From contig NZ_JMFG01000007.1 of NCBI RefSeq assembly GCF_000687145.1, forward strand, positions 1 to 54,125: a DNA stretch of 54,125 nucleotides, read 5' to 3'. The notes beneath the pieces were generated by a model. It worked only from the letters and a program-made list of their open reading frames with translations, was not told the DNA's origin and ran no database searches. Positions 4,753 to 6,963 of the stretch are shown here, piece after piece. The DNA is from Thermoanaerobaculum aquaticum (GTDB lineage Bacteria > Acidobacteriota > Thermoanaerobaculia > Thermoanaerobaculales > Thermoanaerobaculaceae). Made by a program: the position numbers and the translations under genes. The stretch's first letter is position 1. Every line of letters starts with the position of its first letter.

Positions 4753-4828
4753 TGGTGGAGCCGATGGGAGTCGAACCCACGACCTCATGAATGCCATTCA
4801 TGCGCTCTCCCAACTGAGCTACGGCCCC
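4753..4828 (-). tRNA. tRNA-Ala (anticodon GGC)
   Basis: A 76-nt cloverleaf with encoded CCA. The acceptor stem GGGGCCG pairs with CGGCTCC and contains the G3:U70 pair that marks alanine tRNAs. The D-arm is GCTCAGTTGGGAGAGC. The anticodon stem CATGA/TCATG encloses loop ATGGCAT with anticodon GGC. The T-arm is GTGGG-TTCGACT-CCCAT. It decodes GCC and GCU. Its 3' end faces the accessory region on the left, so it could have served as an integration site. Confidence 0.95.
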
Positions 4829-6066: not shown

Positions 6067-6162
6067 GGAAGCGCACGGGGCCTGGTGGCCCTCGCGGTCT
6101 TCAAAACCGTTGCCCGGCCGCACCAGGCGGTCGGGGGTGGGTTCGATTCCCATGCGCTTCCG
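6067..6162 (+). tRNA. selC: tRNA-Sec (selenocysteine, anticodon TCA)
   Basis: A 96-nt tRNA. GGAAGCGC pairs with GCGCTTCC, and the next A-T pair would make nine. A six-pair D-stem encloses TGGT. The anticodon stem GCGGT/ACCGT encloses CTTCAAA with anticodon TCA. A very long variable arm has nine pairs (CCCGGCCGC with GCGGTCGGG). The T-arm holds TTCGATT. The acceptor plus T helix totals 13 pairs, as expected for tRNA-Sec. The discriminator is G and CCA is not encoded. It reads UGA during selenoprotein synthesis together with SelA, SelB and SelD, none of which is in this window. Confidence 0.95.
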
Positions 6163-6189
6163 GAACTCTTTTGGCGAGAACGTGCTAGG

Positions 6190-6963
6190 ATGGCCGTTGT
6201 GGGGGAACAAACCTCTCGTCATATTTACGTGGGGGAGCTTGCCGAAACACCGCTCCCGGAAATGCTGGCTACCATCCACCGCTACCGCGTCCCGGGGGTG
6301 CTGGAGGCGGAGGTAGGGGACGCCATTAAGCGGGTTTTCATTTACGACGGCGACATCATCTTTGCCACCTCCACCAACCGCGCCGAATCCCTCGGTGACA
6401 TGCTGTTAGCCGCGGGAAGGATCACCCACGAGCAGTACCGGGCCTCTTCGCTTTTGCTTTTGGAAAACCCCCATAAGCGCCACGGCCAGGTGCTGGTGGA
6501 AATGGGGATCCTTACCGAAGCCGAGCTGCGGGTGGTGGTGCTGGAACAGGTGCAGCGCATCGTCTGGGGGCTTTTTGGGGTGAACGAAGGCAAGGTGACG
6601 TTTACCCTAGGGGAATACCGCACGGACGAAACCTACAAGCTGCGTATCCCCACCCCCAGGGCCGTGCTTCACGGCTGTAAGACCGTTCCCGACGCCCGCC
6701 GGCTGGTGGGGCGCCTGGGCAGCAAGAGCACGGTTTTCCAAAGGGTCCCCACCCCGGAGCACCTGCGGGGGTTGGAGCTGGAGGCCCAGGAGGAGCAGCT
6801 TTTGTCTTTGGTGGACGGCCGTAAGACCTTTTACGAGCTGTGCGAGCAGGGGCCCTTTGCCCCCGGCCTTAACGCCCGCGTTCTGTACGCGTTTCACTGC
6901 TTGGGGCTGATTCAAAAGGCCAAGGAGCAGGCGGGCATCAAGGTGCAGGTTTCGTCGAGCTGA
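6190..6963 (+). CDS. DUF4388 (PATAN-like) domain protein
   Basis: A 257-residue protein without a signal peptide. The start at ATG 6190 is inferred from where similarity begins; the ribosome site is weak and longer frames run through the tRNA. The first 110 residues carry the DUF4388 pattern (ELAETPLPEMLATIHR, GVLEAEVGDAIKRVFIYDGDIIFATS, LGDMLLAAGRIT, HGQVLVEMGILT). A second related segment follows, and a winged-helix-like C-terminus (LLSLVDGRKTFYELC) ends the chain. Such proteins are found in Myxococcota, Acidobacteriota and Cyanobacteria beside two-component and gliding or pilus regulators. The gene starts only 27 bases after tRNA-Sec and may share its transcript. A cytoplasmic signalling role is inferred. 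Confidence 0.7.
   Translation: MAVVGEQTSRHIYVGELAETPLPEMLATIHRYRVPGVLEAEVGDAIKRVFIYDGDIIFATSTNRAESLGDMLLAAGRITHEQYRASSLLLLENPHKRHGQVLVEMGILTEAELRVVVLEQVQRIVWGLFGVNEGKVTFTLGEYRTDETYKLRIPTPRAVLHGCKTVPDARRLVGRLGSKSTVFQRVPTPEHLRGLELEAQEEQLLSLVDGRKTFYELCEQGPFAPGLNARVLYAFHCLGLIQKAKEQAGIKVQVSSS

Follow-up and report, generated by a model that had tools for sequence, protein, structure and literature searches.

The window, a 54,125-nucleotide stretch of Thermoanaerobaculum aquaticum DNA, carries what is almost certainly a functional bacterial selC gene, and the genome to which it belongs is predicted to decode selenocysteine, since selA, selB and selD are all present and SelD itself appears to be a selenoprotein with an in-frame UGA and a hairpin. 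At the sequence level we found a tRNA-Sec, SelA, SelB, SelD, an in-frame UGA and, downstream of it, a conserved hairpin. By the known pathway, the tRNA-Sec would be expressed, charged, completed with CCA and used for selenocysteine insertion, the one UGA target identified in Thermoanaerobaculum being codon 18 of selD. The tRNA-Sec belongs, as an ordinary case, to a well-known family, and selenocysteine use had been recorded before in its phylum, the Acidobacteriota; a literature search found no paper on selenocysteine in Thermoanaerobaculum.

Two tRNA genes were called in the window by ARAGORN, a tRNA-Ala(GGC) at 4753-4828 on the minus strand and a tRNA-SeC with anticodon TCA at 6067-6162 on the plus strand. 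The latter was matched by the Rfam covariance model RF01852 over its full length (model positions 1-91, window 6067-6161) with 79 bits and an E-value of 1.2e-14, so that both programs bear out the tRNA-Sec gene proposed in the initial annotation. The second-best match to RF01852 in the whole 2.66 Mb genome was a tRNA-Ser(CGA) with 47.6 bits, and the tRNA-Sec is clearly separated in score because this runner-up stands barely above the gathering score of 47 bits. The tRNA-Ser(CGA) gene, at L002 (C2:159859), exceeds that score by 0.6 bits, and the cut-off alone therefore over-calls tRNA-Sec in this class.

The arms of the molecule are listed in Table 1; the TCA anticodon, the nine-pair variable arm and the 13-pair acceptor/T helix were each found as initially described.

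Table 1. Position and structure of the tRNA-Sec gene and its arms in the window
Feature	Positions	Strand	Description
tRNA-Sec (selC) gene	6067..6162	+	Ends at discriminator G73, CCA not encoded; ARAGORN, RF01852 79 bits, covariation
Acceptor stem 5' strand	6067..6074	+	8 pairs with 6154-6161; GGAAGCGC/GCGCTTCC; pairing in 99.6% of relatives' cells
D arm	6077..6092	+	6 pairs, 4-base loop TGGT; 100% of cells paired in relatives
Anticodon arm	6094..6110	+	TCA at 6101-6103; ARAGORN; 12 double changes at closing pair
Variable arm	6113..6135	+	9 pairs, 5-base loop; both-side changes in 8 of 9 pairs among relatives
T arm	6137..6153	+	5 pairs closed at the top by G.U, loop of 7 bases; this top pairing holds in all 29 loci
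	6154..6161	+	Pairs with 6067-6074 in acceptor stem

The features of a bacterial tRNA-Sec are present throughout: the UCA anticodon on a stem of 5 pairs, a 13-bp acceptor and T helix split 8/5 that is kept in relatives, a D arm of the form GGGGCC-TGGT-GGCCCT, a long, covarying variable arm, and a G at discriminator position 73 that is invariant in 29 loci. A 6-bp D stem is a feature by which SelA recognises tRNA-Sec (PMC7609411). In the set of 28 distinct sequences formed by the window gene with its relatives, pairing holds in 99.5% of cells and both sides have changed in 14 pairs; the covariation of 0.362, against 0.147 in shuffled alignments, was reached in none of 500 shuffles.

The initial annotation had left it undecided whether the acceptor stem holds eight or nine pairs. 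A ninth A-T pair can indeed form, as A9 faces the closing U of the T stem, but the choice settles on the bacterial 8/5 layout on the grounds of fold energy, the loss of the ninth pair in relatives and the published layout of bacterial tRNA-Sec, which is 8/5 (PMC5330540). Folded without constraints, the 96-nt sequence has as its minimum-energy structure precisely the 8/5 cloverleaf (-58.2 kcal/mol), which lies 0.9 kcal/mol below the 9/4 form at -57.3 kcal/mol. That this is a tRNA-Sec of the archaeal/eukaryotic 9/4 layout is highly unlikely: the ninth pair can form in the window gene and is possible in 25 of the 28 distinct sequences when G-U is counted, but it is broken in three of 29 class loci (L030, L043 and L044), all 29 of which retain the pair that tops the T stem in the 8/5 form, and SelA is a bacterial enzyme. 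The tRNA-Sec of one relative, G038 (L043:1501-1592), is best read with an unusual split of 7 + 6 pairs, again 13 in all; its A8 faces C and its T stem is GGTAGG/CCTACC.

Whether the organism uses selenocysteine, as the initial annotation held, was there made to depend on selA, selB and selD, and all three were recovered from the genome above curated cut-offs: SelA at C11:59987 with 464.8 bits, SelB at C2:20015 with 340.7 bits when both its pieces are taken together, and SelD at C4:1976 with 344.4 bits. The SelA protein has the SelA Pfam domain, and SelB has a GTPase, a beta-barrel and a SelB-wing_3 domain (Pfam). The three genes lie on different contigs and share no operon with the tRNA-Sec. 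SelD is 83% and 69% identical to the SelD proteins of two Thermoanaerobaculum MAGs. Together with the in-frame UGA of selD, these genes support the prediction of selenocysteine use.

The selD match contains a single in-frame TGA, at residue 18 (MTREEIFKLTEMVSCAG-U-AAKLGPADL; context SCAGUAAKLGP), which is the catalytic position. Fourteen genomes of the family, that of the window included, share the codon; it aligns with Cys or Sec in relatives, and homologues from other lineages have Cys there. Comparison of 14 distinct selD genes gave 119 columns with an invariant amino acid, of which only eight use a single codon, namely the TGA, the run GGT CCG GCG GAC at codons +5 to +8, and three scattered columns. 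Codons +5 to +8 are thus single-codon in 14 of 14 genes, compared with 3 of the 114 other conserved columns, and form the sole consecutive single-codon run among the 119. They encode an RNA hairpin, GGUCC-GGC-GGACC, lengthened by a G.U closing pair (A-U in L054), whose apical loop GGC begins 17 nt past the UGA, with G as its first base followed by another G. Published limits for bacterial SECIS elements cover loop, stem and spacing and set an energy limit of -7.5 (PMC13188914); the selD hairpin lies within the former three, and its energy in isolation, -7.4 to -8.2 kcal/mol, is borderline to the last. The 42 nt following the UGA fold no better than shuffled sequences (z -0.64). Because this comparison gave a null result and the hairpin energy is borderline, the case for a SECIS element in selD is built on codon conservation. 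We propose on these grounds that SelD is a selenoprotein whose UGA at codon 18 is followed by a hairpin constrained at the RNA level. The search for an in-frame UGA with a bacterial SECIS hairpin, suggested with the initial annotation, thereby yielded one gene, selD, with its UGA at codon 18 and conserved hairpin codons downstream.

The initial annotation also expected a set of selenoproteins elsewhere in the genome. One member was found, SelD, and no other emerged from the families and stretches covered by our non-exhaustive search of a genome that is 95.8% complete. Genome-wide, no further UGA-containing gene was found with formate dehydrogenase alpha (FdhA), nor with ten E. coli redox and hydrogenase proteins combined in a single query (Bcp, AhpC, TrxA, MsrA, GrxA, ErpA, GlpC, HybC, DsbG and the AhpF N-terminus), and none of seven AhpC-TSA matches contained a UGA. 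The sole long match to TIGR01591 was NapA-like, carrying Cys and lacking any UGA, and in thioredoxin and at the C-terminus of a NiFe hydrogenase the matched UGA proved to be the natural stop, downstream of a Cys motif that is intact. In-frame TGA codons were also sought by scanning codon usage in 31 stretches totalling 667.5 kb (25% of the genome), including the surroundings of selA, selB, selD and the tRNA-Sec; selD alone was convincing, and the other candidates, judged by context, look like adjacent genes or wrong-frame ORFs. Most Sec-decoding organisms that lack FdhA have selenouridine synthase (Zhang et al., PMC1794560); no match to TIGR03167, the model for this enzyme (YbbB/MnmH), was found in the genome, and with it no selenouridine trait.

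As initially noted, CCA is not encoded in the tRNA-Sec gene, which runs into GAAC after G73 (CCGGAACTC, window 6162-6171), in contrast to the neighbouring tRNA-Ala. An encoded CCA is usual, though not defining, in bacterial tRNA-Sec according to the Secmarker paper (PMC5330540). It is present in all 23 other tRNA genes of the organism's own in the genome stretches examined, absent from the tRNA-Sec of all three Thermoanaerobaculum genomes (the window's, L024 and L025) and present in 27 of 27 tRNA-Sec genes from other genera. Since the three genus members lack it and the other genera have it, the loss is most simply explained as having arisen within the genus, and amounts to one mild oddity of an otherwise normal tRNA-Sec gene. 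Candidate nucleotidyltransferases in the genome are a PcnB-type protein above its cut-off and an 893-aa protein that has the domains of an A-adding enzyme but scores under the cut-off of that model.

What speaks against reading the gene as a functional selC is that, if SelD were the sole selenoprotein, the Sec pathway would serve only itself. We consider it rather improbable that SelD is indeed the sole selenoprotein in a genome without selenouridine synthase, with the pathway kept for itself or for a new SelD-dependent use, and that the loss of CCA from tRNA-Sec alone places Sec decoding under the control of CCA-adding enzymes. The finding of a single selenoprotein, and of a missing CCA in tRNA-Sec alone among the own tRNA genes checked, could also be taken as signs of decay in an unused tRNA of a genome that no longer makes selenoproteins. 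This is scarcely credible, as all helices are intact and show compensatory changes, selA, selB and selD are intact, selD requires its own UGA to be read, and the CCA-less gene has been kept intact in three Thermoanaerobaculum genomes. The chance is equally negligible that the gene encodes a UGA suppressor or an odd serine or tryptophan tRNA inserting another residue at UGA: tRNA-Sec and tRNA-Ser do have features in common, to the point that a true tRNA-Ser passes the Rfam cut-off, but the D arm, the 13-bp acceptor/T helix, the 9-bp variable arm and the 79-bit score argue against it, the genome supplies a separate tRNA-Trp(CCA) and no fewer than four genes for tRNA-Ser, and UGA remains a normal stop, for example after the hydrogenase and thioredoxin genes.

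Matches to tRNA-Sec of at least 61 bits turned up in 36 of the 40 Thermoanaerobaculia genomes; three others, of 39 reported, matched RF01852 at only about 50 bits, as tRNA-Ser genes do. Among genomes with a recovered selD, the UGA is present in 14 of 15 from the organism's own family and in each of the three outgroup families, but in none of the 17 from the order's other family, which has Cys-SelD and nevertheless keeps tRNA-Sec. Because tRNA-Sec occurs in most of the class while Sec-SelD, Sec-AhpC and Sec-FdhA vary, the distribution suggests that selenocysteine use was inherited within the class while individual selenoproteins came and went. Two genomes of the sister family, G017 and G018, encode an AhpC-type peroxiredoxin whose peroxidatic residue is Sec (FTFV-U-PTE; L193 and L197, minus strand), and a perfect GGTC-loop hairpin, TGTCAGC-GGTC-GCTGACA, follows just after the UGA. 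Sec-FdhA (HCARL-U-HSSTV or HCARL-U-HAPTV) occurs in G007, G009 and G038 (L174, L173, L175 and L182). Directly downstream of the window tRNA-Sec lies a DUF4388 gene (6190-6963, plus strand), and a relative of it, 46 to 93% identical, adjoins tRNA-Sec in 27 of the 29 loci of relatives, across two families; no functional link of this neighbour to selenium was found.

These results fix selenocysteine use, as far as genomes can tell, for Thermoanaerobaculum and most genomes of its class. As foreseen in the initial annotation, gene callers may cut selD, and any further selenoprotein gene, at UGA. Two usable cases for studying how the trait is gained and lost are the families with Sec-SelD and with Cys-SelD, both retaining tRNA-Sec, and the disappearance of the encoded CCA in this one genus.

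Compared with E. coli-type bacterial selC, the gene is alike in its 8/5 fold, 13-bp acceptor/T helix, 6-bp D stem, long variable arm, UCA anticodon and G73 (layout per PMC5330540), and differs from the typical bacterial gene in having no encoded CCA (PMC5330540). Sec-SelD is the second most widespread prokaryotic selenoprotein family (PMC13188914), and the Thermoanaerobaculum protein resembles its known members in the position of Sec in the N-terminal selenium-binding loop and in the SECIS-like hairpin just downstream; it may differ from them in being the sole selenoprotein, in a genome without selenouridine synthase. For Acidobacteriota, four selenoproteins of three families and no selenouridine trait had been recorded earlier (PMC1794560), and an acidobacterial test genome had three selenoproteins (PMC12013277). 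The system described here agrees with that picture of a phylum with selenoproteins and without the selenouridine trait, and extends it by mapping, across Thermoanaerobaculia, tRNA-Sec and the distribution of Sec-SelD versus Cys-SelD by family.
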